Source: Nitrososphaerota archaeon (GTDB lineage: Archaea; Thermoproteota; Nitrososphaeria; Conexivisphaerales; DTJL01). Taken from it: a stretch of DNA of 45,376 bases. The stretch lies in contig JAJPJS010000012.1 in the NCBI GenBank assembly GCA_021324115.1, forward strand, positions 1-45,376, read 5' to 3'. This document shows positions 16,865 through 33,035 of the stretch, one piece after another. Position numbers and translations under genes: made by a program. Under the pieces are notes generated by a model. The model had not been told where the DNA came from and searched no databases. It worked only from the letters and a program-made list of their open reading frames with translations. The number at the start of each line of letters is the position of its first letter. The stretch's first letter is position 1.

Positions 16865-17719
16865 ATGGATTTGCGAAGATCCATTCTTCTGGCATTGGCC
16901 AGGCGATACATTGCCGGAGAAGATGTCAGTGGCCTTGTCTCTTTGGCCAAGAGACTTAACAGTCAGGGTTTCAGGATTACAGCCAATTATCTGGGCGAAG
17001 ATGTAGCCACAGATGAGCAGGTACGAAGAAATGTAGATGAATACATCCTTCTTATGGAAGCCTTCGAGAAAGGCAAGCTGGCATCAAGCATCAGTATCAA
17101 ACCAACGCAGGTGGGTCTATCCTTATCCAGAGAAATCGCGTCGAAGAACGTCAATAGAATATTGGAACAGGCAGCAGACTTGGATCAGTTTGTTTGGATA
17201 GACATGGAAAGCTCTCCATACACAGATGATATACTCCGAATCTACCTTTCGCACAAACAGAGCTATTCAAACATAGGTATAACATTGCAGGCCTACCTAA
17301 AACGCAGTCAAGGCGACCTGAAACGCATGCTGGAAAATGAAAGCAAAATTCGAGTTGTGAAGGGAGCATACAACGAAACACCAGACATAATGTTGAAGGG
17401 CAAATCAGAAATCAGGAACAACTTGGCGGAAATGCTGAAGGCGTTGTTCAAACAAAATAATTTCTTTTCCATAGGTACTCATGACAACAAACTCATTGAA
17501 CTTGCAACAGCTCTATCGCATGAATTCTCAAACGACAATTTTGAATTCCAGTTTCTAAAGGGAATACGCGAGGAGAAGGCTTCAGAACTTCTGGACAGAC
17601 GGTTCAAGGTATCTATTTACACCCCCTATGGCAGAAGCTGGATGCCCTACTCCATCAGACGAATGAGGGAAAGAGATAGTGCAACCTACTTTGTGCTCAG
17701 GTCGATACTTCGTCTTTAG
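16865..17719 (+). CDS. putB: Proline dehydrogenase
   Basis: FAD-dependent oxidation of proline to pyrroline-5-carboxylate. At 284 residues it is the short monofunctional form. Family blocks are present: RVVKGAYNE, FFSIGTHDNKLI, FEFQFLKGIREE, and YTPYGRSWMPYSIRRMRERD, whose arginines bind the substrate carboxylate. No pyrroline-5-carboxylate dehydrogenase is in the window. The ATG at 16865 is used. An AT-rich 145-base stretch separates it from the aro leader. Confidence 0.9.
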   Translation: MDLRRSILLALARRYIAGEDVSGLVSLAKRLNSQGFRITANYLGEDVATDEQVRRNVDEYILLMEAFEKGKLASSISIKPTQVGLSLSREIASKNVNRILEQAADLDQFVWIDMESSPYTDDILRIYLSHKQSYSNIGITLQAYLKRSQGDLKRMLENESKIRVVKGAYNETPDIMLKGKSEIRNNLAEMLKALFKQNNFFSIGTHDNKLIELATALSHEFSNDNFEFQFLKGIREEKASELLDRRFKVSIYTPYGRSWMPYSIRRMRERDSATYFVLRSILRL

Positions 17720-17764
17720 TTCTCCTTTAGGAACGATCACTTTCGTGTATGTCAGCCTAGAGTG

Positions 17765-17784
17765 ATACATCAATGTATAAATAC
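17765..17784 (+). promoter_or_regulatory. aro operon promoter with operator-like ATACATCAATGTATA
   Basis: ATACAT-CA-ATGTAT is a short inverted repeat that runs directly into a good archaeal TATA box (GTATAAATAC, 17775-17784). A 15-base stretch, ATACATCAATGTATA, matches 13 of 15 positions with ATACATCAAAGTACA at 34479-34493 between trpE and trpB2. A protein bound here would block TBP. With this TATA, transcription would start near 17800-17810 and leave a 5' leader of about 120 bases. Confidence 0.5.
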
Positions 17785-17843
17785 CAAAGGATGGGTGGGG
17801 GGTCTGAGCAGGATTGACGCAGCCAATAAGGGGCGGTTTAGTT

Positions 17844-17885
17844 TATAGCTGGCCTTATTATGGCTATTATGCCAGCTATAGCTGG
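17844..17885 (+). promoter_or_regulatory. Palindromic leader element ahead of the aro operon
   Basis: TATAGCTGGC (17844-17853) and GCCAGCTATA (17871-17880) are perfect 10-base inverted arms with a 17-base spacer. The right arm also belongs to a perfect 14-base palindrome, CCAGCTATAGCTGG (17872-17885). In RNA the right arm can pair with the upstream arm or fold as a small hairpin by itself, which are exclusive choices. As DNA it is three half-sites of AGCTGG. It ends 28 bases before the AAGGAGG ribosome site of the first gene. Confidence 0.5.
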
Positions 17886-17926
17886 TAAATCCGGCTCGCG
17901 ACACTCTTTTCTAAGGAGGGTTTTTC

Positions 17927-19195
17927 GTGGGGCCAAGAAATCTATGTGACTGTATAGTAATCAAGCTCGGTGGGTCGGTTCTGGAAAACGAAAGTTCAAT
18001 CGCCAGATCCGCGCACCTGGTAAAATCCATTCTTGAGAAAGGGAATAAGGTTGTTGTAGTGGTTTCTGCAATGAAAGGAGTTACAGACAGTCTAATTTCG
18101 ATTTCGAGACAGGTAAATCCAAATATGGAGGCATCCATTCTGGACGAGCTTCTGGCTACAGGCGAAAAGACGAGTGCTCGTCTCATGGCTGCCGCGTTGG
18201 CTTTGCGCGGAATCGATACGGTCGTACTCGACCCGGATATGCCAGATTGGCCGGTAATTACAGATGATACGTATCAAGACGCAAATCCAATACTTGAACT
18301 CACTCGTGAACGAGTCGAGCAGAATGTGCTACCCATAATAGAAAGGGGGTCGGTACCGGTTATCTGTGGTTTCCTAGGTAAGACTGTTAGAAATAAAATA
18401 ACCACGCTCGGCAGAGGGGGAAGCGATACTACAGCGGTCTTGATTGGGAACTGTTTGAATGCAAAGGAAGTTCTTCTGATAAAAGATGTTGAAGGAGTTT
18501 TTTCAAGCGACCCTGACCGTGTAACTCAACCCAGGCTGATAGAGACACTCAACGGAGAGGAGGCAGAATTACTTGCTGCGGGCGGGGCCAAATTTCTGCA
18601 CTCTAAGGCTCTGAGGTTTCATGTAAATGGGATGAAAATCAGAGTCACGAGTCTGGCCAAGTCCGAAGCGGGCACGATTATAGAAAACAATTCATCAACG
18701 AAAGAGATGGATGTACAGATTACAAGCAAGTCAGTTTCAATGCTCACCGTAGTGGGTATAAGCACAAATGACTCGGGACCGCTCGACAGGATAGCCACGG
18801 CAATAAGAAGCGCCGGTGGAAACATCCTTTCTTTATCACTCGAGGAAAATTCGGCGATATTCTATGTAGATGGTGGGGAGGGCCTGCTCGATTCTGTGCA
18901 TTCGGAGATCGTGAATTCCGGCACGGCCAAAGCGGTTTCGTCTTATGACGGATTGTCAATGGTCACCATCAAGGGGAAAATGCTCGAAACAAAGCCGGGA
19001 ATCGTTCAGATTGTAACGCAGCCGCTCGCCAAAGCAGGGATTAACCTGTTCGGGATCATAACAATACACTCGTCCATAAGACTTTTTGTTTCCAATGAAC
19101 AGACAGACTCGGTCACCAGGCTCGTTCGGGAAGCCGTGGGGGACCAGAAAACTAACCTGAAGGGAAAAGCTGTTATCAACCAGGAGGTTACGTAA
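17927..19195 (+). CDS. lysC: Aspartate kinase
   Basis: Phosphorylates aspartate to aspartyl-4-phosphate. The 422-residue protein starts with the kinase motif VIKLGGSVLEN, has VVVVSAMKGVTD and TLGRGGSDTTAVLIG, and ends in a tandem ACT region (about 270-420) of the kind that binds feedback amino acids. GTG at 17927 follows a strong AAGGAGG. Its position as first gene of the aro operon fits the archaeal route, where aspartate semialdehyde derived from this product is a substrate of the next enzyme. Aspartate semialdehyde dehydrogenase itself is not in the window. Confidence 0.94.
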   Translation: MGPRNLCDCIVIKLGGSVLENESSIARSAHLVKSILEKGNKVVVVVSAMKGVTDSLISISRQVNPNMEASILDELLATGEKTSARLMAAALALRGIDTVVLDPDMPDWPVITDDTYQDANPILELTRERVEQNVLPIIERGSVPVICGFLGKTVRNKITTLGRGGSDTTAVLIGNCLNAKEVLLIKDVEGVFSSDPDRVTQPRLIETLNGEEAELLAAGGAKFLHSKALRFHVNGMKIRVTSLAKSEAGTIIENNSSTKEMDVQITSKSVSMLTVVGISTNDSGPLDRIATAIRSAGGNILSLSLEENSAIFYVDGGEGLLDSVHSEIVNSGTAKAVSSYDGLSMVTIKGKMLETKPGIVQIVTQPLAKAGINLFGIITIHSSIRLFVSNEQTDSVTRLVREAVGDQKTNLKGKAVINQEVT

Positions 19196-19990
19196 TTGGT
19201 TAGTGGTAAACAGGTCAGACTTGCAAGGCTGACAAAAAAGGGGAGGATGCTGTGCATACCCCTAGATCACGCCCTGACGGTTGGTCCCATATTTGGCTTG
19301 GAAAACCCTGGAACAATTATACAAAAGGTGGTGGCTGGTGGCGCTACATGCATTCTCGCCCACAAAGGAACAATCAGGTCGCTCGAAGCACCTGTACCCG
19401 TGGGAATGATACTTCATATATCAGCAAGCACGTCGATTGGAGTATCTCCAAACAGAAAGGTACTGATCTCGTCTGCCCGGCATGCGATCCGGCTAGGAGC
19501 GGACGCGCTCTCGCTACACATTAACATCGGTGGGAAGGAAGAATCCGAAATGCTTTCTGATCTTGGAATGGTAGCGGACGAATGCGATTCACTCGATCTG
19601 CCTTTGGTGGCTATGATGTACCCTCGGGGAGAGAACATAAAAGACGCAACTGACCCAGACACAGTTGCTCATGTAGCAAGAATCGGCGCAGAATCAGGAG
19701 CCGATATCGTGAAGACCGTCTACACCGGAAATACAGAGACATTCAGACAGGTGGTTAGGAAATGTCCCGTACCTGTAGTGCTCGCTGGCGGTTCCAAAAT
19801 GGATTCTGAGGAACAAATCTTGGAGGTCGCATCATCGGCTGTCAGGGCCGGAGCGATGGGGGTCGCGTTTGGAAGAAATGTCTTTCAATACAGGGAACCC
19901 GAAAAAATCGTCACGGCATTACGCAGAGTGGTTATCGATGATGAATCCGTCGCACAAGCCATGGAGGGGTTGAGGAGTGAACAAGCCTGA
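19196..19990 (+). CDS. aroA': 2-amino-3,7-dideoxy-D-threo-hept-6-ulosonate (ADH) synthase
   Basis: First step of the archaeal shikimate route: a class I aldolase-like enzyme condensing a sugar-derived C3 unit with aspartate semialdehyde. The 264-residue protein has the family start CIPLDHALTVGPI, the Schiff-base lysine in DIVKTVYTG, and phosphate-binding VVLAGGSKM and GVAFGRNVFQY. The TTG at 19196 directly follows the aspartate kinase TAA. It overlaps DHQ synthase II by 14 bases. The neighbour separates it from ordinary fructose-bisphosphate aldolases of the same family. Confidence 0.92.
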   Translation: MVSGKQVRLARLTKKGRMLCIPLDHALTVGPIFGLENPGTIIQKVVAGGATCILAHKGTIRSLEAPVPVGMILHISASTSIGVSPNRKVLISSARHAIRLGADALSLHINIGGKEESEMLSDLGMVADECDSLDLPLVAMMYPRGENIKDATDPDTVAHVARIGAESGADIVKTVYTGNTETFRQVVRKCPVPVVLAGGSKMDSEEQILEVASSAVRAGAMGVAFGRNVFQYREPEKIVTALRRVVIDDESVAQAMEGLRSEQA

Positions 19991-20969
19991 CGTAATAGTG
20001 GACTTTTCCGGGCATCCGTCCGAATCTCTTGACGAAATTGGCAAGCTAGACATAGAAAAGGTAATAATCGAAAAGAAGGCTTTTGACGATCGACTTTTCG
20101 CTCTTTCCGTCCGGGATGCAAAAGGTCACAGGCTCAACGCCGTCTGGGCAACGATCGGGAACGCCAACGACCTTCAAAAGGTAGTAAAAATCGCATCGGG
20201 TGACTACGATTTCGTTGTAATCGAATGCACCGACTGGAAGGTGATTCCTTTAGAGAACCTTATTGCAGAGTTCCGGAGAACTGGAAAGAAGCTCTATACA
20301 GTTGTGAAGGAGCCTTCAGAAATTGGCTTGACATCAACAATTCTAGAAAGGGGAGTAGACGGAATCGTAATATCTCCTGAACTCGTATCACAAGCAAGAA
20401 AATCCTTCACGAGCTCATCTGAAATTCATCTATCAGGGTCCACGGTAACCAGAATAATGGATGTAGGCCTTGGCGACCGCGTCTGCCTAGATACAACATC
20501 GCAGCTGGCCAAGGGCGAAGGAATGCTCGTTGGGAGCAAAGGCGGCTACTTTTTCCTGGTCCATGGAGAGACTATAGAAAACCAGTACATCGCAACGCGA
20601 CCATTCAGGGTAAACGCTGGCGCAATTCATAGCTACGTACTGACCCCAGGCCTGAAGACCAGATATCTCTCCGAATTTTCGGCCGGGGACAGAGTCCTTG
20701 TCGTTCAAACGAATGGAGGTACAAGGGAAACTGTGGTGGGCAGGATCAAGATGGAAAAGAGGCCAATGGTATTGATCGAAGCCACTCATGAAGGTGAGAC
20801 CGGCTCCATCATTCTTCAGAATGCAGAGACCGTCAGGCTCGTGAGGGTCACAGGTGATCCCGTCTCTGTGATGGAATTGAAGCAGGGGGACGAGATTTTG
20901 ACCGCCATACTTCCACCAAAAGCCAGGCACTTTGGAGGAGAGGTAGATGAATTCATCATCGAAAGATGA
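19977..20969 (+). CDS. aroB': 3-dehydroquinate synthase II
   Basis: NAD-dependent conversion of ADH to 3-dehydroquinate, the archaeal replacement for AroB. The 330-residue sequence matches the MJ1249-like family: VGLGDRVCLDTTSQLAKGEGMLVGS split around a catalytic region, ATRPFRVNAGAIHSYVL, and the C-terminal ILPPKARHFGGEVDEFIIER, which is highly typical. GTG at 19977 lies inside the end of the preceding gene. This pairing confirms the noncanonical shikimate entry. Confidence 0.95.
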   Translation: MNKPDVIVDFSGHPSESLDEIGKLDIEKVIIEKKAFDDRLFALSVRDAKGHRLNAVWATIGNANDLQKVVKIASGDYDFVVIECTDWKVIPLENLIAEFRRTGKKLYTVVKEPSEIGLTSTILERGVDGIVISPELVSQARKSFTSSSEIHLSGSTVTRIMDVGLGDRVCLDTTSQLAKGEGMLVGSKGGYFFLVHGETIENQYIATRPFRVNAGAIHSYVLTPGLKTRYLSEFSAGDRVLVVQTNGGTRETVVGRIKMEKRPMVLIEATHEGETGSIILQNAETVRLVRVTGDPVSVMELKQGDEILTAILPPKARHFGGEVDEFIIER

Positions 20970-20999
20970 TCGTCTCAGTTTTGAAGGAGTAAGTGATTG

Positions 21000-21677
21000 A
21001 TGTCAGGACCCAGAATTTGTACTAGCTTGGCCGCGAATACCATTGAGGAACTACTCGAAAAGGCGTCAACCGCCATGGACCTTGGTTCTGACCTGATAGA
21101 ATTAAGACTGGATTTTCTGGAAACATTCTCGGTCAGTCAAATCGAAAGATTCCTGGGCAGCTACGTGAAAAGAGCAATAGCTACCCTAAGACCCGTCTCT
21201 GAAGGGGGCAGGTTCGTTGGCCCTGAGAATACTCGTATTAGATTACTTGAGGAGCTGGCAAGCCTTCCCTTTTACCTGATCGACGTGGAGTACAAAGCGA
21301 TTTCATCTAACAGGAAGCTCCACGATTCGATCAAAAGGAGCAGACGAATCATATCCTGGCACAGCCTTTCTGGCACTCCGAGTATCAGGACAATGCATGT
21401 TATCGTGAGGAATGTCTCCATTGCAGGAGCGTACGCAAAGATCGTAACGGTGGCGAACTCCTATGAGGACAACGTTCGTACCCTTTCTCTTTACAGGTCA
21501 AGATACGCGAAAAGACTGATCGCTTTCTGCATGGGTGATCGAGGAGTTGCCTCACGCTTTGTTTCGGCTTCACTCGGAAGTCCGATAGTGTATTGTTCAC
21601 TCCCCTCGGAGCCGGTGGCCGAAGGGCAGGTCTCTCTTTCCCTCATGCAGGAAGTGTTAAGGGGGATAAGAAATTGA
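21000..21677 (+). CDS. aroD: 3-dehydroquinate dehydratase, type I
   Basis: Removes water from 3-dehydroquinate through a Schiff base. The 225-residue protein has the family motifs LIELRLDFLE, ATLRP, the histidine in IISWHSLSGTPS, the lysine in AKIVTVANS and the terminal substrate loop VAEGQVSLSLMQEVL. The ATG at 21000 follows GAAGGAG; TTG at 20997 is equally placed. Its stop overlaps the aroE start in a TTGA junction. Confidence 0.93.
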   Translation: MSGPRICTSLAANTIEELLEKASTAMDLGSDLIELRLDFLETFSVSQIERFLGSYVKRAIATLRPVSEGGRFVGPENTRIRLLEELASLPFYLIDVEYKAISSNRKLHDSIKRSRRIISWHSLSGTPSIRTMHVIVRNVSIAGAYAKIVTVANSYEDNVRTLSLYRSRYAKRLIAFCMGDRGVASRFVSASLGSPIVYCSLPSEPVAEGQVSLSLMQEVLRGIRN

Positions 21678-22510
21678 CCGACCATTATTATCTTTTAGGC
21701 ACCGACGTCTCGAAATCACCTTCACCTAGCATGTTCAATTCTGCATTCTCCGAACTCAAAATAGATGCGACCTATTATCCGTTGAACGTCCCAGCCGATG
21801 GCTTAACCAGCGAGTTTCATAGACTGGGAAAGGAGTCAACTAGAGGAATGAACATTACGATCCCATTCAAAACACAGATTTTGTCATTGCTTGATGAACT
21901 CGACCCTTCATCAAAATCGATCGGCGCGGTCAATGTGGTTAAATTTTCAGGCGGATGGAGCACCGGGTATAATACCGACATCCATGGGATAACCGAATCC
22001 CTGAGATGCCATGGCGTATCTTCCGTAGATAGCGCACTTCTTCTTGGTTCGGGTGGAGCTGCAAGAGCATTTTGCTCAGCCATCAACTCTTTAGGCTGTA
22101 AGGAGATATCGGTTGTCGTTCGTGATAAGGTCCGAGCAAAAAACTTCATCGAATCGATGCGAAACTCATTTCCAGCGATGAGGTTCGAGGTGTCGGAGAA
22201 TCATATCCCCAAAGAAACAAAATTTGACTTGGTCTTCAATGCAACTCCGCCCAATAGTCTGAGTAGTGACCTGCTGTTAGAATTGAGAGATGTAATATCA
22301 TTCAAGACAGTGGTTTTCGAAGCTGTATACTATCCTTTGAAGACTGATTTGCTCAGAATCGCTTCTGAACTTGGTGCAAAAACGATAAAGGGCTCAGAAA
22401 TGTTGCTCAATCAGGCACTTCTCGCATTCAAAATTTGGACAGGGAGAGAACCACCAAGAGGTATTATGGAGAGGTCGCTTCACAGTTCACTCGGAGATGT
22501 CGCAGGATGA
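21674..22510 (+). CDS. aroE: Shikimate dehydrogenase
   Basis: NADPH-dependent reduction of dehydroshikimate. From the TTG at 21674 the 278-residue product begins YYLLGTDVSKSPSPSMFNSAF, the shikimate-binding serine motif. NITIPFKTQIL contains the catalytic lysine, GAVNVVKF and GYNTDIHGI follow, then the nucleotide-binding LLGSGGAARAF and a C-terminal GSEMLLNQALLAFKIWTG. The longer open frame starting at 21593 overlaps aroD and lacks homology. Start and stop overlap its neighbours by four bases each. Confidence 0.94.
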   Translation: MTDHYYLLGTDVSKSPSPSMFNSAFSELKIDATYYPLNVPADGLTSEFHRLGKESTRGMNITIPFKTQILSLLDELDPSSKSIGAVNVVKFSGGWSTGYNTDIHGITESLRCHGVSSVDSALLLGSGGAARAFCSAINSLGCKEISVVVRDKVRAKNFIESMRNSFPAMRFEVSENHIPKETKFDLVFNATPPNSLSSDLLLELRDVISFKTVVFEAVYYPLKTDLLRIASELGAKTIKGSEMLLNQALLAFKIWTGREPPRGIMERSLHSSLGDVAG

Positions 22511-23385
22511 TCGGACGGGCGTTTGCGTATGGCGCTGTAAGTATCCTCAATGCCGTGGCCAATGGTAGGGGCGTGACTCTTGGAATCGACCTGAAAACCG
22601 CATCAAAGGTCGAGCTTCATAAAGGTGAAGGTAGGTGGAACCTGACTATAAACGGAGAAGACAAGGAATCAAGACTAGCTGAGGCGTCTGTCGACGCGGC
22701 GCTTCGGTTGGTTGGGGAGAGGATATCAAACTTTCATGGTACGATCGAGACGCAAAGTAACATACCGATGGGGGTTGGTTTGAAGAGTTCGTCTTCTTCC
22801 TCACTAGCGATAATTATGGCTACACTGCAGGCCATGGGTCAGGAAAGCTTCGAACCCTCAGAAGTTCTAAGGGCGAGTGTGGCTTCTTCGCTGGCCTCTG
22901 GCGTCAGCATAACGGGCGCTCTGGATGATGCAGCTTCATGTCTTCTTGGTGGTGTGAACCTTGCTGACAATCTGAAGAGGAAACTGATTTCGTCAAGGCG
23001 GTTACCCGATAGGAAGAAAGTAGTAATCAGGATCCCAAATGAAGAAAGCAGGAGACGGTTCATCAATATCAAACAAGTAAAAAGCTTCCGTAAGGTAGCG
23101 GATCGTATACTCATCTCAAGTCTGAAGGGTGAGTATTGGTCGTCGATGACGATGAATGGTATGCTATACTCCATGTTACTTGGATACGACGCCTCACCCT
23201 CCATCACCGCACTCGATTGTGGGGCGGTTGGTGCAGGACTGTCAGGCACCGGTCCCGCGATATGTGCTGTATTTGATTCATCTAACACACAGGGTATAGA
23301 TAAATTGAGAGATATGTGGGCAAAAGACGGCTCTGCCGTCATGACTGCAGACACCAATAACGAAAAGGGGGGCTTGGTTGTTTGA
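22507..23385 (+). CDS. aroK: Shikimate kinase, archaeal GHMP type
   Basis: Phosphorylates shikimate. It belongs to the GHMP kinase superfamily, not the P-loop AroK family: start GRAFAYGAVSILNAVANGRG, ATP-binding IPMGVGLKSSSSSSLAII near residues 88-105 and the C-terminal GAVGAGLSGTGPAICAVF. The 292-residue length is normal for archaea. ATG at 22507 overlaps the aroE stop (ATGA); the longer frame from 22435 has no homology. Confidence 0.93.
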   Translation: MIGRAFAYGAVSILNAVANGRGVTLGIDLKTASKVELHKGEGRWNLTINGEDKESRLAEASVDAALRLVGERISNFHGTIETQSNIPMGVGLKSSSSSSLAIIMATLQAMGQESFEPSEVLRASVASSLASGVSITGALDDAASCLLGGVNLADNLKRKLISSRRLPDRKKVVIRIPNEESRRRFINIKQVKSFRKVADRILISSLKGEYWSSMTMNGMLYSMLLGYDASPSITALDCGAVGAGLSGTGPAICAVFDSSNTQGIDKLRDMWAKDGSAVMTADTNNEKGGLVV

Positions 23386-24677
23386 GTAAAACAGTCACAC
23401 TGATTGCGCCTAAATCCGGGTTAAGCGGTTCAGTAACTCCTCCCCCAAGTAAGAGCTATACCCATCGTGCCATACTGCTTGCCAGTTTAGCAGAAGGGGA
23501 ATCCACAATTTGGAATCCTTTGCATTCTAGAGATACAGATGCCACGATAAGAGGCTGCATCTCATTTGGTGCCAAAATAGAGGATGGTGAAAACTCATTA
23601 AGAATCAGGGGCTGTCGGCCCCAGACGCCGGATGACATCATAAATGTCGAAAATTCAGGCACAACATTACGTTTCCTGTCCTCTGCTTTATCCCTCACTC
23701 CTTCCGGTTTCTCGGTACTGACAGGAGATTTAAGCATCAGACGACGACCAATGCAGCCTCTTCTGGATTCGCTCACACAACTAGGGGTGCATGCAAAATC
23801 TACTAGGGGAAATGGTTGTGCCCCGGTCATTATAGGTGGCGGAGGGCTCCGAGGTGGCGAAGTAAAGATAAGGGGTGATATCTCATCACAATTTATTTCT
23901 TCCCTGCTCATATCTGCTCCAATGGCAGATAAGGACGTCGTCATAAAAACAGACGACGTAGTATCCAAACCGTACATAGATGCTACCATTACTATGATGA
24001 GGAAGTTCGGAGCCAAGGTGACGAACCATGATTATAGCTATTTTATTGTGAGGTCTGGCACAGGCTACAGTGGCGAAGATTTTACGGTTCCGGGAGACTT
24101 CAGCTCGGCATCGTTCATTGCAGGCGCGGTAGCGATGATAGGTGGAGAGGTCGAATTATGCGGATTGAATGCAGAACTCCCGCAGGGGGACTCCTCGTTT
24201 CTTTCTATCCTAGGATCAATGGGTGTCGAAGTAAAGCAGCGAGAAAAGGGTTACATGATCAGATGGAACGGGGATAAACTTCAGGGAGGAACCTTCGATC
24301 TTACAGACACACCGGACCTGCTGCCTGTGCTTGCCGTGCTTGGTTTGAAGTGCAAATCACAGCTGGAAATCACCGGCGTGATGCATGCCCGCTACAAAGA
24401 GACCGACAGGATCTCTACAATAGTTCAGGAGCTTTTGAAGTTGGGTGTGGACATCACGGAGAGGCCGGACGGCATAGTAATAAAGCCAGGTAAACTGAGG
24501 CGGGCCAAACTCGACGCTCATGGCGACCACAGGATGTTCATGGCATTCTCGATGATATCCTTGCTGTTTCCTCAGGGAATACCAGTTTTTGGGGAAGAAA
24601 GCCTCGATGTATCTTATCCTTCATATCTGGAAGACATCAGCAAGTTGGGCGTAATCGTCAGGAGGCAGAACATTTGA
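23382..24677 (+). CDS. aroA: 3-phosphoshikimate 1-carboxyvinyltransferase (EPSP synthase)
   Basis: Adds enolpyruvate to shikimate 3-phosphate. The 431-residue protein has PPSKSYTHRAILLASLAEG (the phosphate-binding Lys and Arg), NSGTTLRFLSSAL, GDISSQFISSLLIS, the catalytic Asp in DTPDLLPVLAVLG and the RYKETDRIS and DHRMFMAFSM blocks. All catalytic landmarks are present. TTG start overlaps the kinase stop as TTGA. Confidence 0.96.
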   Translation: MSKTVTLIAPKSGLSGSVTPPPSKSYTHRAILLASLAEGESTIWNPLHSRDTDATIRGCISFGAKIEDGENSLRIRGCRPQTPDDIINVENSGTTLRFLSSALSLTPSGFSVLTGDLSIRRRPMQPLLDSLTQLGVHAKSTRGNGCAPVIIGGGGLRGGEVKIRGDISSQFISSLLISAPMADKDVVIKTDDVVSKPYIDATITMMRKFGAKVTNHDYSYFIVRSGTGYSGEDFTVPGDFSSASFIAGAVAMIGGEVELCGLNAELPQGDSSFLSILGSMGVEVKQREKGYMIRWNGDKLQGGTFDLTDTPDLLPVLAVLGLKCKSQLEITGVMHARYKETDRISTIVQELLKLGVDITERPDGIVIKPGKLRRAKLDAHGDHRMFMAFSMISLLFPQGIPVFGEESLDVSYPSYLEDISKLGVIVRRQNI

Positions 24678-25780
24678 GCGGAAATATCATCGGGGAGAGA
24701 TTTGTTACAGTAACATTTGGTGAAAGCCATGGCTCGTGCGTTGGGGCCGTGATCGATGGATGCCCAGCCGGTCTGCAGATTTCGGAAGCGGAAATCCAAC
24801 ATGACCTAGACCTAAGAAAGCCCGGGCAATCGATAGTAACAACTCAAAGAAAGGAAGAGGATAGGGTTGAGATACTTTCGGGGGTGTGGAGGGGTTTCAC
24901 GACCGGAGCACCCATCATGATGTATATCCGCAATATGGACAAGGATTCCCGATCTTACGACCTTATTATGAATACTCCCAGACCAGGGCACGCGGACCTT
25001 GTGTCTAGGATCAAATACGGTGGATTCAATGACTATAGGGGAGGCGGAAGATTCTCCGGTAGAATCACGGCCTCCTTCGTGATGGCAGGTGCCGTCGCCA
25101 AGAAGCTACTCAAATACACGCTGGGGATAGAAATAATTGCATATTCATTGGAAATAGGTGGAATCCGGGCCGAAAACTTCACACTGGATGAAGCTCGGAA
25201 TAACAGGTACAACAATGAGACGAGGGCACCGCTTCCAAGCGTAGCCGAAGAGATGAAGAAGAAGATAATAGAAACAAGAGGAAAGGGGGACAGTTTAGGT
25301 GGAATAGTCGAATGCCATGCGATAAACGTGCCCATCGGCCTCGGCGAGCCTGTTTTCGATTCGCTTGATTCGGATTTGGCAAAGATAGCCCTTGCAATAC
25401 CAGCTGCAAAGGGTGTGGAATTCGGCAGTGGTTTTGAAGCCGCAAGGCTCAGAGGAACACAGAACAACGATCAATACATTCTTGATGGAGAAAATATAAC
25501 AACAAAAACAAACAATTCAGGTGGAATCCTCGGCGGCCTCTCCAATGGAAGACCGATCGTGTATCGCATTGTGTTCAAACCCGCATCTTCGATAGCTTCC
25601 AAGCAGAGCACGGTCGACCTGGAAAAGAAGAAGCAGGTCGATATCATAGTCCCGGGTAGGCATGACCCTACCGTCGTCCCGAGGGCCGTACCTGTCGTCG
25701 AAAGCACCACCGCTCTTGTTCTTGCCGACCACGCAATTAGAGCCGGCTTTATTCCTCCCGTACTCAAGGTCAAGGTGTGA
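24674..25780 (+). CDS. aroC: Chorismate synthase
   Basis: Forms chorismate using reduced FMN. The 368-residue product shows the signatures FGESHGSCVGAVIDGCPAG, RPGHADLVSRIKYGGFNDYRGGGRFSGRITA (split here for length: RPGHADLVSRIKYGG and YRGGGRFSGR) and GRHDPTVVPRAVPVVE. TTG start overlaps the EPSP synthase stop by four bases. It is followed after three bases by the CTG-started chorismate mutase fusion. Confidence 0.96.
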   Translation: MSGNIIGERFVTVTFGESHGSCVGAVIDGCPAGLQISEAEIQHDLDLRKPGQSIVTTQRKEEDRVEILSGVWRGFTTGAPIMMYIRNMDKDSRSYDLIMNTPRPGHADLVSRIKYGGFNDYRGGGRFSGRITASFVMAGAVAKKLLKYTLGIEIIAYSLEIGGIRAENFTLDEARNNRYNNETRAPLPSVAEEMKKKIIETRGKGDSLGGIVECHAINVPIGLGEPVFDSLDSDLAKIALAIPAAKGVEFGSGFEAARLRGTQNNDQYILDGENITTKTNNSGGILGGLSNGRPIVYRIVFKPASSIASKQSTVDLEKKKQVDIIVPGRHDPTVVPRAVPVVESTTALVLADHAIRAGFIPPVLKVKV

Positions 25781-25783
25781 ACT

Positions 25784-27178
25784 CTGAAAGAAGACATTCA
25801 GCTTGGAAGATTAAGGGAAAAAATAACCGAAAGGACGCTGGAGATAATCAGGCTGGCCGGCGAACGCAATGAATTGGCCAGAGAAGCGGGTCGAATAAAG
25901 TCGATGAACTCAATTCCTATCCAGGATGAACGCGTCGAAGCCGCACTGTATGAAGCCGTAGCCATGGAATGTGAGAAGGTTGGCGTTGAAAAGCGGACCG
26001 GTTTCAAAATTCTCAGCAGCCTGTTAGCAGAGTCAAAAAGGGTACAGGGTGGAACTTCGCCGATTCCCCGCGAGACTCCCATGCAATCCTTCGCGAAAGC
26101 AGTGAAGCTGCAGAGTGAAGGCAAGAAAATCATACGTCTTGATGTAGGTGAACCCGACTTCAGACCTCCCGCGAGCGTGGTAAATGCATGTATCGACGCT
26201 CTGAGGAACTTCAAAACCCATTACACACTGACGAGGGGCATTCCAGAACTCGTCGAAGCGCTCAGAAACTATTTGAAATCAAAATGGGGTTTTGATGGCA
26301 CAGAAGACGAAATCATCATTACCACAGGGGGAAGGTTTGCCGTTTATTCCGGATTGGCAAGCGTCCTGAGCGAAGGGGAGAGTGCTATTGTCATAGATCC
26401 GAACTGGCCTGCTTACAAGCAGGCCATAGAATTCATCGGAGCCAGGCCTTTGACTGTCAGAAGCACGCTTGAAGAAAGATGGAATCCGCCTCTTGAGGAC
26501 ATAAAGAATTCAATAAGAGCGGACACCAGAGCCATAGTGATAAGCTACCCCAATAATCCAACCGGAAAGGTTCTGGATCGTGAAACTTTCAGGTCGATAA
26601 TTGAAATAGCGAACGACTATGGATTGACTATAATAAGCGATGAAACGTATGTGGACTACGCATTCAAATCCTGTCCCACTATCCTCAATTCGGATGCGGA
26701 GGACTTCATCTGCATCGGAAGTTTCTCCAAGACGTGGGCAATGACCGGTTTCAGGGTGGGTTATGCCATTTCTTCAAAAAATACAATCGACAAAATGCTC
26801 TCTATGGCTTCCTTGATGCTTACGTCTGCTCCCGAGTTCGTTCAGTATGCAGCTATCGCGGCACTTGGTTGTGACAGGGAAGCAAGGGAAAACTGCATAA
26901 CTATGAAGGAAAGGTCGGAAGCCGTCTGTGATTTGCTCGAAAAGACGCCCAACATCGAGGTCTATCGACCTAATGGGGCAATCTATCTCTTTCCAAGAAT
27001 CAAGAATACGAGAATTGTAGCGGGTGAATTCGCAGAAAGGCTGCTGAGCGAAAAACTCGTCAGTGTAACCCCCGGTATCGCATTTGGAGCCTATCCGGAA
27101 CACTTCAGGATATCTCTGTGTAAGCCAAAAGAAGTCCTGTTTGAAGGAGTTGAACGAATAGGTGAAGCATTACTTTGA
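25784..27178 (+). CDS. Chorismate mutase (AroQ)-aminotransferase fusion
   Basis: Residues 1-90 form an AroQ-type chorismate mutase: LREKI arginine, GERNELA arginine, GRIK lysine, the ERV region and a final SKRVQ match the E. coli active-site order. Residues 105-464 are a class I/II aminotransferase with DVGEPDF, YPNNPTGKVLD, SDETYVDY, the PLP lysine in SFSKTWAMTGFRVGY and the carboxylate-binding RISLC. It could therefore make prephenate and transaminate in the tyrosine branch. No ATG, GTG or TTG precedes the mutase domain: CTG at 25784, six bases after AAGGTG, is the only sensible start. ATG at 25874 would remove the first mutase helix. Confidence 0.9.
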   Translation: MKEDIQLGRLREKITERTLEIIRLAGERNELAREAGRIKSMNSIPIQDERVEAALYEAVAMECEKVGVEKRTGFKILSSLLAESKRVQGGTSPIPRETPMQSFAKAVKLQSEGKKIIRLDVGEPDFRPPASVVNACIDALRNFKTHYTLTRGIPELVEALRNYLKSKWGFDGTEDEIIITTGGRFAVYSGLASVLSEGESAIVIDPNWPAYKQAIEFIGARPLTVRSTLEERWNPPLEDIKNSIRADTRAIVISYPNNPTGKVLDRETFRSIIEIANDYGLTIISDETYVDYAFKSCPTILNSDAEDFICIGSFSKTWAMTGFRVGYAISSKNTIDKMLSMASLMLTSAPEFVQYAAIAALGCDREARENCITMKERSEAVCDLLEKTPNIEVYRPNGAIYLFPRIKNTRIVAGEFAERLLSEKLVSVTPGIAFGAYPEHFRISLCKPKEVLFEGVERIGEALL

Positions 27179-28017
27179 ACATCTCAATAGTCGGAGCAAA
27201 TGGTGCGATGGGTTCCTTCTTCGCAAGGTATTTTGCGTCGAGGGGTCATAATGTTTTAGGGTTTGATATCAAGAGACAAAAAGGGTCAGGCCAAGGCCCT
27301 GTAATGGTTGCTTCGCTCGAACTGGCTGTTCGACAAGCAGACGCCGTCATGCTTGCAACACCAATGACTTCAATGGGGTCGGTGGGAAGGAAAGCTCTAT
27401 TACACATGAAACGAGGGTCTTACTTGATTGAAATTTCTTCGGTCAAGGGAAACCTCTTACCAACTCTCCGCAGATTGTCCAGGGCCAGGGGGGTCGAACT
27501 TCTTTCCATTCACCCTTTGTTCGGACCCGCACAGAATGTAAGTGACAGAATGAAATTGCTTGTCGTGATGACAGGCAAAAATTCAAGAAGTCTGGCACAT
27601 ACCTTTTTTCCTAATGCAGAAATTTATACCACGAGTCCAGCACTTCATGATAGGCTGATGAGCCTCATACTGTCACTTACACATGCAACAAATGCGGCGT
27701 TTGTGTCCGTTGTAAAATCGAATATCAAACCACAAAGACTCAAAAGAATGGCTACGCCATTCTCCTATCTTCAGCTGATACTTGGTCAGGCAATACTTTC
27801 ACAAAGCCCAGAGCTCATGGCCGAGATCCAGGCTGAAAATCGCTACTCAGAAGAAGTGCTGAGATCTATGATTTCGGAGCTGACAAGAATTGCCGACCTC
27901 GTACGGGATAAGAACACGGAAGAACTAACTAGGGCGTTCGCAATCCAGAGACAGGATTCGTCATCAAGGAATGCTATCGACTCCGTATACAGGGCATATC
28001 GCTCGATTGTCAGCTGA
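27175..28017 (+). CDS. tyrA: Prephenate dehydrogenase
   Basis: NAD(P)-dependent oxidative decarboxylation of prephenate (or arogenate). The 280-residue protein has the Rossmann start ISIVGANGAMGSFFARYF, MLATPMTSM, EISSVKG and the diagnostic SIHPLFGPA. It carries no fused mutase or ACT domain; the mutase is supplied by the upstream gene. TTG start overlaps the previous stop (TTGA). It ends the aro operon and overlaps the convergent trpA stop by eight bases. Substrate preference is not readable. Confidence 0.92.
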   Translation: MNISIVGANGAMGSFFARYFASRGHNVLGFDIKRQKGSGQGPVMVASLELAVRQADAVMLATPMTSMGSVGRKALLHMKRGSYLIEISSVKGNLLPTLRRLSRARGVELLSIHPLFGPAQNVSDRMKLLVVMTGKNSRSLAHTFFPNAEIYTTSPALHDRLMSLILSLTHATNAAFVSVVKSNIKPQRLKRMATPFSYLQLILGQAILSQSPELMAEIQAENRYSEEVLRSMISELTRIADLVRDKNTEELTRAFAIQRQDSSSRNAIDSVYRAYRSIVS

Positions 28018-28813
28018 GCCTTGCGGCCTCTTTCAGCGATCCTACGAACTTTTCCACTTCTTCAAACAAGTTCGGAGACTCCTTCAAAGAAGAAACGAAG
28101 TCGACAATTGCGCTGCCCACCACGACCCCATCGGCGCCTGCGTTTATGAATCTCGAGACATGAGAAGGTTTGGAAACCCCGAAACCTACAACAAGCGGAA
28201 CCCTCCCATTAGTCAGCCTCTTGGCTTTGCTCACAAATTCCAAGCTGGCATCCTTGATTTCGGACCTTGCGCCTGTTACACCTACTACAGATACAAGATA
28301 AAGGAAACCATTTGTCAAACCAGCAATCTTCACCAATCTTTGGGAAGGGGTCGTTGGTGCCGCAAGCAAAATGACGTCTACACTCTTTGTACCTGCTTGC
28401 TCCCTAAGCAGATGCACCTCTTCCACTGGAAGGTCTGGTATGATTATGCCATCGATTTGACCTTTGTTCATGGCGTCAAAGAAATTTCGAATCCCCTTGG
28501 AATAAACCAGGTTGTAATAGGTCATGAGTACAATCGGAATATGAAAGTCTCTTTTCAATTTGGTACCCACTCGGATCACATCATCAGGTGTTGTCTTTGA
28601 TTGCAGGGCCCGAACCGAAGCTGCCTGAATCGACCTTCCGTCCGCGATCGGGTCAGAAAATGGAATCCCCAGCTCAATTATATCGGCACCTCCCGATATG
28701 GCTGCTTTGGCCAGTTTGTATGAGGCGTCGATATTCGGGTCACCACCCATCATATATGCAATTAGAACACCAGAATCCCCCCTAGACCTGAACACCTTTG
28801 AGATATCGCTCAA
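28010..28813 (-). CDS. trpA: Tryptophan synthase alpha subunit
   Basis: Cleaves indole-3-glycerol phosphate to indole. The 267-residue TIM barrel has [21 protein letters not shown] (catalytic Glu and the FSDP loop), the Asp in [23 protein letters not shown] and GFGVSKPSH phosphate-binding segments. TTG start overlaps the trpB stop. It is last in the trpEGDCFBA operon. Confidence 0.96.
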
Positions 28814-29979
28814 ATGTGTGAACCTTCCCTTTCGGCGACTACCTCCACGTCTTTGTCGCCTCTTCCAGACAGAGTCACTACAATCACCTTATCCTTGCCC
28901 ATCTTCCTGGCTACCTTCAATGCATATGCGATAGCATGTGCAGATTCGAGTGCCGGCAGTATTCCTTCCAATCTCGACAGCCTGTGGAATGCATCCAGCG
29001 CTTCAGAATCTGAAACCGTTACGTACGTCGCTCTTCCGGACTCCTTAAGAAAAGCATGTTCCGGACCCACGCCGGGATAATCCAATCCCGCAGATATGCT
29101 ATGTGTACTTGCGACCTGTCCGTCTTCGTCCTGAAGAAGGTAACTCAGCATCCCGTGCAATACGCCTTCCTTGCCAAATGAAAGTGATGCTGCATTGGCG
29201 TCTGCTCCGGTTCCTCCAGCCTCGACGCCAACCAACCTCACATCTCTATCTTTAACGAAAGGATAGAACGAACCGATGGAATTACTTCCTCCGCCGACAC
29301 ATGCGAAAACACAATCGGGATAACGTCCCTCACTTTCCAGCATCTGTTTCTTGATCTCCTTTCCTATGACACTCTGAAAATCTCTTACCATGGTGGGATA
29401 TGGATGCGGACCCACGGCGGAACCGATGAGATAGTATGTTGTGGAAAGGTTTGTCACCCAATCACGAAGCGCCTCATTGATTGCATCTTTGAGTGTCTTC
29501 GACCCCGATGAAACTGGAAGCACATTCGCGCCAAGCAGCTTCATTCTGTAAACGTTGAGTTTCTGACGCTCCATATCCTCGGTACCCATGTATACCTCAG
29601 ATTTCAGTCCGAGTACAGCACACGCCATGGCGGTGGCGACCCCATGCTGTCCTGCACCTGTTTCAGCTATTACCCTTGGTTTCCTCATCCTCTTTGCAAG
29701 TAGAGCCTGACCAAGTGTGTTGTTGATTTTATGCGCCCCGCCATGCAGGAGGTCTTCTCTTTTCAGATATATCTTGGCCCCTCCGGCATACTTGGTAAGA
29801 TTGGACGCAAAGTATAACGGTGTGGGTCTCCCGGCATATTTCCCGAGCAGCGATTCTAGTTCGACACGGAAATCCCTATCCTTCTTTGCCTCCAGGTATC
29901 CACGCTCCAGCTGTTCGAGCGCTGGCATAAGGGTCTCGGGTACGTATTGACCGCCGAATCTGCCGAACCTTCCCTTCAT
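28810..29979 (-). CDS. trpB: Tryptophan synthase beta subunit (trpB1 type)
   Basis: PLP enzyme joining indole and serine. The 389-residue product has [18 protein letters not shown], the PLP lysine in [40 protein letters not shown] and the C-terminal LSGRGDKDV. It is adjacent to trpA with TTGA coupling, as expected for the interacting alpha-beta complex, unlike the second beta gene at 34.5 kb. ATG start, six bases after trpF. Confidence 0.97.
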
Positions 29980-29985
29980 ACTGTA

Positions 29986-30624
29986 TCACATCACCCCGTC
30001 GGATTCCTTTGCCCTTTTAACGAACTCTTTCATGAGTAGGGGGTCCTTTATTCCAGGTGACCGCTCCAAACGTGATGAGGCATCGACTCCGTATGGGCGG
30101 ACTATTTTCACAGCATCTACAACATTGTCTGGCCCAACTCCGCCTGCCAGAATAAGGGGCTTTGGCGAGATCTCATCTTTTATCTTCGAACAAAGATCGA
30201 AATCCTGGGCTACACCTGTGCCTCCCCTCAAACCTGACCTGTAAGAGTCTACGACGAGACCATCGTATCCACTGACCGCCTTTCCTGCACTGACCCTTTC
30301 GTGTCCAACTATGTACGGCCTAAGTACATCCACGTTCAATGTTTCCCTAATGGGGACCGGGTCCGAACAATCGTACAATTGCAAAGTATCGATTTGCAGC
30401 TTGCTTATCACATTGAGGTTATGTTTCAGAAAGGTTTCCGTGGTGACCAATACTGCTGATACAAACGGGGGGACGGATGTGCTAAGGTCGGTGACCCTTT
30501 CCAGTGAGATATTTCTAGGAGATTCGGGAAACCCGGCTATAAAGCCAACCGCGTCGACACCAGCCTCAACTGCTGCCCGCAGGTCAACCTGTCGTGTTAT
30601 CCCACATATTTTTACTCTCACCAT
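29986..30624 (-). CDS. trpF: Phosphoribosylanthranilate isomerase
   Basis: Amadori rearrangement in tryptophan synthesis. The 212-residue TIM barrel begins VKICGITRQVDLRAAVEAG with the catalytic cysteine, has VDAVGFI, VDTLQLYD and PLILAGGVGPDNV, and ends with GVDASSRLERSPGIKD containing the conserved VDxSS motif. ATG at 30624, two bases after the trpC stop. Confidence 0.94.
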   Translation of the reverse strand: MVRVKICGITRQVDLRAAVEAGVDAVGFIAGFPESPRNISLERVTDLSTSVPPFVSAVLVTTETFLKHNLNVISKLQIDTLQLYDCSDPVPIRETLNVDVLRPYIVGHERVSAGKAVSGYDGLVVDSYRSGLRGGTGVAQDFDLCSKIKDEISPKPLILAGGVGPDNVVDAVKIVRPYGVDASSRLERSPGIKDPLLMKEFVKRAKESDGVM

Positions 30625-30626
30625 AT

Positions 30627-31409
30627 CTATTCCCCCTTTAGCTCCCTAAGCTTCGCAAGGGGATCATCGGCTTTCATCAGGGTAGATCCTACAAGAAATG
30701 CATCAATACCCAATTTTGAAAACCTTTCAATCTCTGACCTATCTTTGAATCCACTTTCACTCACAACCGGTTTGTCTGGTTTACCAATCGCTAGCAGTTT
30801 TTCCGTGGTTGCCAGCGAAGTCTCCAACGTCATGAGGTTTCTATTGTTTATGCCAATCAAGTCAGCATCAGTCTTGGCCGCTCGTATGTACTCCTCTTCG
30901 TCGTGAACTTCGAGAAGCACTTCAAGTCCTAACGAATGTGAATATGAAATCAAATCGGTCAGGGGGGAGTTGGCCAAGCCCGATTGGAACACGCCCATTA
31001 TAAGTAGAACCGCATCTGCACCAAGTCGACGACCCGCTTCGACCTGGATCCGGTCTATGATGATATCTTTCATCAGTACTGGAATCTTCACACGACTCTT
31101 GACCTCAGCAAGAGAATTCAAATTTCCACCAAAATGTTTTGGCTCTGTAATAACGGAAATTGCAGATGCACCTCCGCACTCGTATCTAATCGCAACATCT
31201 TCGGCTGGTCCGGCGCTTCTCAATCGACCTTCCGCCGGTGAGATGAACTTCACTTCTGCGATTATTGGTGTGGTATCACGTTTGATGGCCTCGAGCAGAC
31301 TTGTGTGGTGGAAATTAAGAGATTTTTTAACTGAATAATAACCTTGGGCAATAGACGTCTTGGCTGATTCCGTCAGGACAGAAAGGAAGTTACGTTGTGT
31401 TTTCTGCAA
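30627..31409 (-). CDS. trpC: Indole-3-glycerol phosphate synthase
   Basis: Ring-closing decarboxylation. The 260-residue protein has PIIAEVKFISPAEGRLR with the catalytic lysine, the substrate KDII in VLMKDIIIDRIQV, ADAVLLIMGVF, IGINNRNLMTLETS and VVSESGFKDRSEI. TTG at 31409 overlaps the trpD end by 20 bases in another frame. Confidence 0.95.
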   Translation of the reverse strand: MQKTQRNFLSVLTESAKTSIAQGYYSVKKSLNFHHTSLLEAIKRDTTPIIAEVKFISPAEGRLRSAGPAEDVAIRYECGGASAISVITEPKHFGGNLNSLAEVKSRVKIPVLMKDIIIDRIQVEAGRRLGADAVLLIMGVFQSGLANSPLTDLISYSHSLGLEVLLEVHDEEEYIRAAKTDADLIGINNRNLMTLETSLATTEKLLAIGKPDKPVVSESGFKDRSEIERFSKLGIDAFLVGSTLMKADDPLAKLRELKGE

Positions 31410-32445
31410 CCTGTTTCACCCCTACCGAATCCCTTTGCGCGAAACTTACCAATGCTTGGAGTTTCTTCAATGCTTCACCTGTTTCGATTGACAGATTGGC
31501 AAGTTCGCATCCTTCCTTGAAGTCATCCACCAACCCAGAAACCACTAGTGCACCAGCAGCGTTGACTACGACCATATCATGCGCAAGGCCATGAGCGCCG
31601 CCACTCAATATCTTCATGGTCAAGGTCGCACTTTCTTCTACATTCGAGATCCTTATCGGAGGTTCTGTGTAAAGTCTTACACCCATTTCTTCTGGGGTGT
31701 ATTCGAACGTCTCTATCTTTCCATTCTTCAGCCAAGACAGCACAGTTTTTCCCCTGACAGATATTTCGTCCACACCTTCAGAACCATGTACAACTATCGC
31801 CTCATCCAAACCGGAGATCTTCAGAACCTCCGCCATCACCGGCACGAGAGATTCAGAGTATACCCCCATCAGCTGTCCACGTATCGGCACAGGATTCAGT
31901 AAGGGACCCATCAGGTTGAATACTGTCCTTATCCCGAGTTCCTTTCTGATGCCAGCAACCTTTTTCAATGCAGGATGGAAAGCGGGAGCAAAGAGAAACC
32001 CGATACCTATCTCTTCCAATGACTTCTGCACCGAATCGGGAGAGGCATTCAGGTTCAGGCCGAGTTTTTCAAGCAGATCAGCACTTCCGCACCGGCTACT
32101 CACCGACCTGTTACCATGCTTTGCAACCTTTGCACCCGCCCCTGCAGCAACAATTGCAGCCAAGGTGCTCACATTGAATGTTCCGGACATGTCGCCTCCT
32201 GTGCCGCATGTGTCTATTATTCGACCGGAAATTTTGGGGAACAATCTGACGCTGAACTGCCTGAGTGCCTTGGCAAAAGAGGCCATTTCGGCCGGTGTTT
32301 CCCCCTTCATCTTCAATCCTAACAAAAGTGCACCAATCTGAGCTGCGGAGGCCCTTCCGTCGACGATCTCCTGGACGGATTCAGATATCAAATCAGAATC
32401 TAGGTCTGAACGGTCTGCCACTTTCTTAATCGCAAGTTCTATCAT
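31390..32445 (-). CDS. trpD: Anthranilate phosphoribosyltransferase
   Basis: Transfers phosphoribose to anthranilate. At 351 residues it is full length with IIDTCGTGGDMSGTFNVSTLAA (split: CGTGGD and FNVST are the PRPP motifs), AKHGNRSVSSRCGSADLLE and the GLNLN and RTVFNLMGPLLNP regions. ATG at 32445 follows GGAGGATA, which doubles as the end of trpG. Confidence 0.95.
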   Translation of the reverse strand: MIELAIKKVADRSDLDSDLISESVQEIVDGRASAAQIGALLLGLKMKGETPAEMASFAKALRQFSVRLFPKISGRIIDTCGTGGDMSGTFNVSTLAAIVAAGAGAKVAKHGNRSVSSRCGSADLLEKLGLNLNASPDSVQKSLEEIGIGFLFAPAFHPALKKVAGIRKELGIRTVFNLMGPLLNPVPIRGQLMGVYSESLVPVMAEVLKISGLDEAIVVHGSEGVDEISVRGKTVLSWLKNGKIETFEYTPEEMGVRLYTEPPIRISNVEESATLTMKILSGGAHGLAHDMVVVNAAGALVVSGLVDDFKEGCELANLSIETGEALKKLQALVSFAQRDSVGVKQVAENTT

Positions 32446-32447
32446 AA

Positions 32448-33035
32448 CTATCCTCCGACCTGCCGAAGAAAATTGTGGAGAATCTTGACCCCTTCCTTGG
32501 TCATTATCGATTCTGGGTGGAATTGGATCCCTTCGATCGGGTACGAAGCATGTCGGATTCCCATTATCTCCCCATCATCAAGGGAGAGCGCAGTAACCTT
32601 CAGAAAGCTGGGCAGGCTGTTTTTATCTATCACTAAGGAATGGTATCTTGTAGCAACTAAGGGATTCTCCACTCCACTGAGTACGCCCTTTCCGTCGTGG
32701 ATGATCCTGCTCGTCTTTCCATGCATCAAAACACCAGCACGAACTATTCTGGCACCGAAGGTGCAACCTATTCCCTGATTTCCAAGGCAGATTCCAAGCG
32801 TAGGAATAGTTGGCCCGAACTCCGATATCACAGTTCCGCAGATGCCAAAGGACCTGGCTTCCTCTGGATTTCCCGGACCGGGAGAAATGATTATTCTATC
32901 AGGAGCCAATTTCCTTATCTCTTCAACAGTTATTTCATCATTTCTCCTAACTATGGGGTCTGCACCAAGGGAGCCTACGTGCTGCGCTATGTTGTAAACA
33001 AAAGAATCATAATTATCGAGAATAAGCACCTTCAT
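32448..33035 (-). CDS. trpG: Anthranilate synthase glutamine amidotransferase subunit
   Basis: Supplies ammonia to TrpE. The 195-residue class I amidotransferase has DNYDSFVYNIAQ, SPGPGNPEEA, the nucleophile in LGICLGNQGIG, and the His-Glu pair in IQFHPESIMT. The usual GHQ after the cysteine is GNQ. ATG overlaps the trpE stop (ATGA), consistent with equal production of the complex. Confidence 0.95.
   Translation of the reverse strand: MKVLILDNYDSFVYNIAQHVGSLGADPIVRRNDEITVEEIRKLAPDRIIISPGPGNPEEARSFGICGTVISEFGPTIPTLGICLGNQGIGCTFGARIVRAGVLMHGKTSRIIHDGKGVLSGVENPLVATRYHSLVIDKNSLPSFLKVTALSLDDGEIMGIRHASYPIEGIQFHPESIMTKEGVKILHNFLRQVGG

Follow-up and report, generated by a model that had tools for sequence, protein, structure and literature searches.

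The TRP box of TrpY has the sequence TGTACA. In Thermococcus, a single regulator, Tar (TK0271), serves both the aro and the trp operons and has the site TGGACA-N8-TGTCCA upstream of the BRE/TATA, and the excerpts of the same source describe both TrpY and Tar as almost missing from crenarchaeal genomes (PMC6737238). In translation, the closest described device is the RF2 (prfB) cassette, which is composed of a short ORF, a Shine-Dalgarno (SD)-like stretch 3 nt upstream, a CUU_U or UUU_U slip site and a +1 continuation (PMC5009743, in excerpts). According to the excerpts of this 2016 source, starvation frameshifting is not known to be used for making trans-frame proteins, and a +1 frameshift is very likely in the haloarchaeal virus HSTV-2 (PMC5009743). 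Among cellular archaeal genes, one -1 frameshift is the only demonstrated case according to the excerpts of a 2021 source (PMC8211752).

The window analyzed here is a stretch of 45,376 nt from a Nitrososphaerota archaeon, which corresponds to contig C13 of the source genome (G000; 2.14 Mb, 27 contigs). It carries an aro operon headed by aspartate kinase and a trp operon whose trpE is divergent from trpB2 (Table 1). An earlier note on this DNA proposed an operator shared by the two operons; this idea appears half right, and a +1 frameshift device in the aro leader, which appears to sense tyrosine and tryptophan, is judged more important. The favored reading, given a probability of roughly 0.7 from sequence comparison, is that two layers of control are combined, a TGTAC-type DNA operator and a starvation-sensing +1 frameshift leader. 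The compared genomes carry family (f) and genus (g) labels; f7, f9, f10, and f12 are taken by us to be ammonia oxidizers. A search for relatives gave one close relative, A_CRE_07 (L031), a Nitrososphaerales metagenome assembly with an AroC of 77% identity to that of the window, which holds every 31-mer of the kinase locus of G319 (f11); on the strength of this record, the class is taken to be Nitrososphaeria. Two other matches of this search had bacterial names and were dropped.

Table 1. Positions of the aro and trp features in the window.
Feature	Position	Strand	Remarks
Proline dehydrogenase	16865..17719	+	Directly upstream of aro promoter
Operator-like box of aro, ATACATCAAT	17765..17774	+	Directly upstream of TATA; matrix score; RTRCAY-like boxes in the same place in f11 aro promoters
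TATA box of aro operon, GTATAAATA	17775..17783	+	By inspection
Leader ORF of aro, MTQPIRGGLVYSWPYYGYYASYSW and stop	17814..17888	+	TTG start; 6 Tyr and 2 Trp in 24 residues
Shift cassette GGGCGGT-TTA-GTT-TAT	17831..17846	+	SD-like stretch, 3 nt, slip codon GTT 17841-17843, Tyr codon 17844-17846
Inverted repeat TATAGCTGGC (17844-17853) / GCCAGCTATA (17871-17880)	17844..17880	+	Begins at Tyr codon; by inspection; not the minimum-energy fold
+1 frame entered at slip site	17845..17949	+	Open through aspartate kinase start; stop TGA 17947-17949
Shine-Dalgarno of aspartate kinase, AAGGAGGG	17913..17920	+	Inside predicted hairpin
aro operon	17927..28017	+	Aspartate kinase, ADTH synthase, DHQ synthase II, aroD, aroE, archaeal shikimate kinase, aroA, aroC, aminotransferase, prephenate dehydrogenase
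trp operon	28010..34429	-	trpE-G-D-C-F-B-A
TATA box of trpE, TTATAAATA	34452..34460	-	Sequence on - strand; by inspection
trp operator, three boxes: GTACATTATT 34469-34478, ATACATCAAA 34479-34488, GTACAGAATG 34489-34498	34469..34498	.	10-bp spacing
TATA box of trpB2	34499..34506	+	By inspection
trpB2 (TrpB-like)	34506..35870	+	Divergent from trpE

The operator proposal started from two 15-mers, ATACATCAATGTATA at 17765-17779 and ATACATCAAAGTACA at 34479-34493, which lie where the earlier note placed them and are identical at 13 of 15 positions. There is indeed overlap between the first and the aro TATA box (17775-17783), and the second is flanked by the TATA boxes of the divergent trpE and trpB2. 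As a pair they are mildly unusual: a 13/15 match anywhere between these two 60-bp promoter windows occurred in 0.9% of 3000 shuffles (P = 0.009). A chance match between two AT-rich TATA regions is unlikely, though it has its grounds, as this P value is modest once a whole window has been scanned by a reader, and the joint pattern at up to three mismatches has three matches in the window (one of them being the first site on the opposite strand), equal to the 3.09 expected from shuffles. Against chance stands the placement of both sites at the operator position known from relatives. In the 2.14-Mb genome, the only exact matches to the joint pattern are the two sites themselves, with one further match at one mismatch and 12 at two; at up to three mismatches, there are 180 matches vs 111 for the reversed-pattern control. 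Eleven of the 13 one- or two-mismatch sites fall inside stop-free frames of at least 120 codons, and neither of the two intergenic near-matches (L012 and L015) has an aromatic gene beside it. Since the window matches are at shuffle level and long stop-free frames contain most genome near-matches, the 15-mer does not qualify as a regulon motif, and the genome scan that had been suggested as a check revealed no genome-wide regulon; the 15-mer was ruled out in that role. The register is also off, the aro site being the box directly beside TATA and the matched trp site the middle of three boxes. The aro box is a weak, mis-registered operator member, the counterpart of the TATA-proximal trp box and not of the middle one.

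At trp, the operator has more regular features. The trpE-trpB2 intergenic region of the source genome runs GTACATTATT ATACATCAAA GTACAGAATG TTTATAAG, that is, three boxes (containing GTACAT, ATACAT, and GTACAG) and then TATA. TrpE itself probably starts at TTG 34429 or ATG 34402, because the listed ATG 34474 precedes the trpE TATA box. The same build was found at both trpB2 promoters of G008, GTATCTTTTT ATACATTTCC GTACAGAATA TTTATATA at the first and GTACATTTAT GTACAGCACA GTACATAATA TTTAAATA at the second, and in all three promoters the RTAC/GTAT boxes follow an exact 10-bp period that ends 10 bp before TATA. On the trpE side, GTAC begins 11 bp before the TATA octamer in G000, G006, and G007 and 13 bp before it in G008. 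TGTACA is present in 19 of 31 trpE promoters of f11-f23, compared with 1.4 in shuffles (maximum 5 in 300), so that a TGTAC-type operator at trp is real in part of the class; it is found in none of the 17 trpE promoters of f7, f9, f10, and f12. In two f16 genomes, a PadR-type gene is divergent from trpE (L202:902-1381 and L208:892-1347, both on the - strand), and its product is a candidate TGTACA binder in those genomes. Among 20 further window proteins compared with Pfam, only one weak regulator candidate was detected, the protein of 40711-41415, with a weak match to HFX_2341_N (E 3e-7), a family presumably named after a putative haloarchaeal transcription regulator.

At aro, the box of the source genome ranks among the best 0.08% of window positions with a matrix built from relatives and lies exactly at TATA, and may be functional for these two reasons. 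The same two boxes occur at the aspartate kinase promoters of genus g35 (f11), A_CRE_07 included, for instance in G200 (GTACATCTTC GTGCACCAAT TCATAAATA). G006, G007, and G008, the nearest relatives, have no such operator ahead of aro, and TGTACA was counted at one of five aro promoters of f1 together with A_CRE_07, two of 13 in f11, one of 20 in f13-f24, and none of seven in f2-f4. Conservation at orthologous aro promoters, another suggested check, is therefore rejected by these counts for the nearest relatives and most families. Thus, of the shared operator, the trp part stands, while the aro part is conserved only in one relative lineage. The same evidence bears on promoter control as the whole explanation, by which one TrpY-like or other repressor would act at the trp and aro boxes and the leader features would be irrelevant. 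The 19 of 31 trpE promoters, the aro box at TATA in the source genome, and the PadR-type gene at the two f16 loci scanned agree with it, but the operator is missing at aro in the nearest relatives and nearly so in f13-f24, and it is absent at trpE in f7, f9, f10, and f12, where the cassette described below is common; this explanation is considered very improbable. The aro promoter may also have a history of its own. A proline dehydrogenase homolog (46%-49% identity) is directly upstream of both G008 trpB2 copies (L104 and L085), with the boxed promoter between (a trpB2 locus of G007, with alignment values equal to those of one G008 locus, is not taken as an additional case), and the aro operon of the source genome may have landed behind an old trpB2-type promoter, a promoter capture by rearrangement.

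The distance from the TATA box to the GTG of aspartate kinase (17927) is about 145 bases in the source genome. Aromatic-rich leaders are found in the same place in relatives, such as MRGYNKATKFNWPYYWYYF in G008, MVSIANRLYLSYSYWVSYYY in G162, MKNAATRVGTASRFTVYGYYGYSW in G145, and MKNAITRAERPAYWTVFGFFGYSW in G200, each followed by a stop, and in others; those of f11 relatives end in YGYSW before the stop. In six f11-type leaders, the codon pairs of the last nine alignment columns are synonymous in 20 cases and non-synonymous in 10 (2 differences at the first, 10 at the second, and 23 at the third codon position), compared with 42 synonymous and 152 non-synonymous pairs over the whole ORF; the coding signature is therefore confined to the aromatic end of the leader. 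Across aro leaders, aromatic residues make up 62 of 292 positions in the 0-frame tails vs 81 of 850 in the +1 frame, and a 0-frame tail rich in them would sharpen sensing. The leader ORFs of G000, G008, G162, and the g35 group, together with this enrichment, would suit classical ribosome-mediated attenuation, in which stalling on a Tyr/Trp-rich leader refolds the mRNA around the kinase SD in the absence of any frameshift. The AGCTGG/CCAGCT hairpin and SD-region pairings in f11, seen by inspection and in partial agreement with predicted folds, also fit this mechanism, which is nevertheless improbable as the full account, as it leaves unexplained both the open +1 frame ending on the kinase start and the start-less TrpE described below. 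In the g35 group (L142-L145 and L031), two pairings can form, one between GCGAGAA near the leader start and TTCTCGC ahead of the kinase SD and one between AGCTGG and CCAGCT after the last Trp codon; both are possible attenuator folds. The folds of f11 leaders, predicted from single sequences, differ between genomes. A search against the Rfam RNA families for a known leader RNA gave no match at E up to 5 in 17700-18000.

Within the aro leader, the pattern RGGYGRN-NNN-NTT-TAY is common to most families. The pattern RGGCGRTNNMYTTTAY has 30 matches in 35 genomes, 17 of which are before aspartate kinase, and the remaining 13 are at the level of the reversed control (14); the cassette is therefore a single-site cis element. 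By the same off-kinase counts, GGCGATNNMCTTTAY was rejected as a regulatory motif, of DNA or RNA, that is scattered over the genome. In 11 of 11 leaders of f13, f14, f17, f18, f21, and f24, an ATG, GTG, or TTG lies exactly six codons before the Tyr codon, and the 0-frame of aro leaders stops 2 to 18 residues after the aromatic codon. The +1 frame, in contrast, stays open past the kinase start or ends no more than 17 nt short of it in all 29 cassette leaders of 10 families (f2, f3, and f4 excluded), vs none of 29 for the 0-frame and five of 29 for the +2 frame; with the intervening bases shuffled, the +1 frame reaches as far in 8.8 leaders on average and in at most 18 of 29 (3000 trials). In 13 of the 29, its stop shares bases with the kinase start codon (-2 to +2; ATGA, TTGA, or GTGA in most cases; shuffle mean 4.4, maximum 11), and eight of the 29 +1 frames contain no ATG, GTG, or TTG. 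In f2, f3, and f4, the +1 frame and the kinase frame are one and the same.

The prediction, set beforehand, was then applied to a held-out set of 16 further kinase genomes, 13 of which were retained after the exclusion of G314 and G345 (contig end) and G319 (a repeat of A_CRE_07). Eight of the 13 carry the cassette (G305, G310, G342, G348, G361, G370, G375, and G381). In all eight, the +1 frame reaches the kinase start (null 3.2 on average, at most 7), and its stop overlaps the start codon in seven (null 2.5, at most 7). Of the others, G331 has an aromatic leader without the cassette, and neither cassette nor aromatic leader was found in G325, G326, G335, and G356. No aro cassette was found in G008 or the g35 group.

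Two groups of aro leaders depart from this build, and the first of them does not fit the frameshift reading. In f16 (L156, L157, L158, and L160-L163), the cassette bases are conserved and the +1 frames open, with a plausible 0-frame start codon in none of the seven genomes; three of these leaders (g55) have in-frame stops in the cassette (GAT TGA CTT or GAT TAA CTT). The cassette as purely a conserved peptide, RGDxLY, was rejected because of these stops. The leaders of G006 and G007 (L116 and L117) possess two overlapping tandem cassettes, the first with TGG and the second with TAT or TAC, in a shared 27-codon ORF, and only the first was counted among the 29. The aspartate kinase of the source genome is provided with a GTG and an SD of its own; a shift at aro is therefore not obligatory and would modulate rather than enable its synthesis.

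The counterpart at trpE has the form (ATG/TTG)-GGN-GRN-NNN-NTT-TGG, with TrpE in the +1 frame, and was found at 55 of 73 loci. The 73 comprise 69 scanned loci and four f10 loci that were viewed and lack the cassette; A_CRE_07 and G319 among them are near-duplicates, and the f3 and f4 loci, where trpE is not first in the operon, were left out. The nearest 0-frame ATG or TTG is exactly five codons before TGG at 40 of 48 scored loci, the 0-frame stop comes at a median of nine residues past TGG, and the slip codons are TTT (25), CTT (15), GTT (10), and ATT (5), all followed by T. A genome-level search with WTGGGTGRNNNNNTTTGG gave matches in 133 of 200 genomes, many at trpE coordinates, vs 68 of 200 for the version one base shorter that served as a spacing control. 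No trpE cassette was detected in G000, in f13 (2/2), or in several f10 genomes, and G170 has the cassette sequence in the wrong frame; these loci count against the frameshift reading. Comparison across loci shows the cassette, its frames, and the swap of the codon, Tyr at aro and Trp at trpE.

A rival to the shift at trpE is ordinary initiation, by which TrpE (and the aspartate kinase of f2-f4) would start at the GTG in GGTG, and the upstream ATG/TTG and the TGG/TAY would be by-products of a conserved N-terminus (M-x-x-F-G or M-x-x-F-I). A GTG is in the TrpE frame in 50 of 55 trpE cassettes, so that an ordinary GTG start is possible at those loci; one is likewise in frame at aro in f2-f4, and the FG dipeptide is conserved. 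However, the TrpE frame has no usable start at 10 loci in five families (G008; G267, G258, G270, G195, G277, and G268; G188; G288; G120), where the first ATG, GTG, or TTG lies 66-306 nt into the aligned gene or is missing from all 201 nt of available sequence. At the f16, G188, and G008 loci of this group, a TAG closes the TrpE frame immediately ahead of TTTGG. Ordinary initiation also does not account for the Phe codon of the +1 frame, which is always TTT, with no TTC version among 62 loci, whereas gene bodies favor TTC (in G006, 0 TTT and 19 TTC; P = 3e-6 with one value per family). Moreover, in the aro leaders of f13-f24, the codon is GCG and the kinase start is about 100 nt downstream, yet the +1 frame is open. 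Ordinary initiation is regarded as an improbable explanation.

The two-layer reading may then be laid out as follows. In the first layer, the TGTAC-type boxes beside TATA at trp, with a single weak copy at aro, would probably bind a putative repressor. In the second, a ribosome would start the short aro leader ORF and meet the SD-like stretch, 3 nt, and GTT-TAT. When Tyr-tRNA is plentiful, the Tyr codon would be read, and the ribosome would stay in frame and stop early at 17886. When Tyr-tRNA is scarce, the empty A site would let the peptidyl-tRNA slip +1 (GTT to TTT), and the ribosome would follow the +1 frame as far as the aspartate kinase start and across it, opening it or re-initiating there. 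At trpE of relatives, a Trp codon takes the place of the Tyr codon in the same cassette (NTT-TGG), and TrpE is what the +1 frame encodes, so that a slip would make the enzyme. We infer the slip, the response to starvation, the coupling to the kinase start, and the repressor. The wider proposal, that this is a class-wide archaeal sensor in which a leader of 5 to 13 codons slips +1 at NUU_U while awaiting Tyr-tRNA or Trp-tRNA and thereby yields TrpE or delivers the ribosome to the aspartate kinase start, is somewhat favored on the present alignments.

If this is true, hungry-codon frameshifting would for the first time be seen to serve a cell as a regulatory switch, no earlier +1 programmed frameshift would be known from cellular genes of archaea, and TrpE starts would be misannotated across a large archaeal class. 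In the open-licence literature, no earlier description was found of trpE frameshifting in archaea or Thaumarchaeota or of programmed frameshifting in Nitrosopumilus. The reading predicts a conserved trpE +1 frameshift with a distinctive N-terminal peptide: for ATGGGTGGACACCTTTGGAAA, a shift would give MGGHLGK or GGHLGK, while ordinary GTG initiation would give MDTFGK or DTFGK. A shift leader would also be a simple answer to aromatic amino acid sensing without TrpY or Tar.

Compared with described systems, the operator layer resembles the TrpY/TRP box of Methanothermobacter in having TGTACA-like boxes beside trpE and a divergent gene, but differs in the exact 10-bp spacing of its boxes; the TGGACA-N8-TGTCCA site of Tar is not what the source genome shows. 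Similar to bacterial trp and phe attenuation, a leader ORF with codons for the regulated amino acids precedes a biosynthetic operon, but the signal seems to lie in the frame rather than in a terminator hairpin. The proposed +1 slip promoted by a slow A-site codon is shared with hungry-codon frameshifting (Gallant; Ty1 CUU_AGG_C). The closest likeness in build is to bacterial RF2, in which a short ORF is likewise read in the 0-frame, the slip codon of a CUU_U or UUU_U site follows an SD-like stretch at a distance of 3 nt, and the downstream protein is in the +1 frame. Unlike RF2, the present cassette is archaeal, also uses GTT and ATT slip codons, and at aro has a +1 frame that runs to the start of the next gene rather than encoding that gene. 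Its A-site codon is that of Tyr or Trp (TAY or TGG) in place of the in-frame UGA of RF2; therefore, the device would sense amino acid supply, and it works like, but is not, an RF2 cassette.
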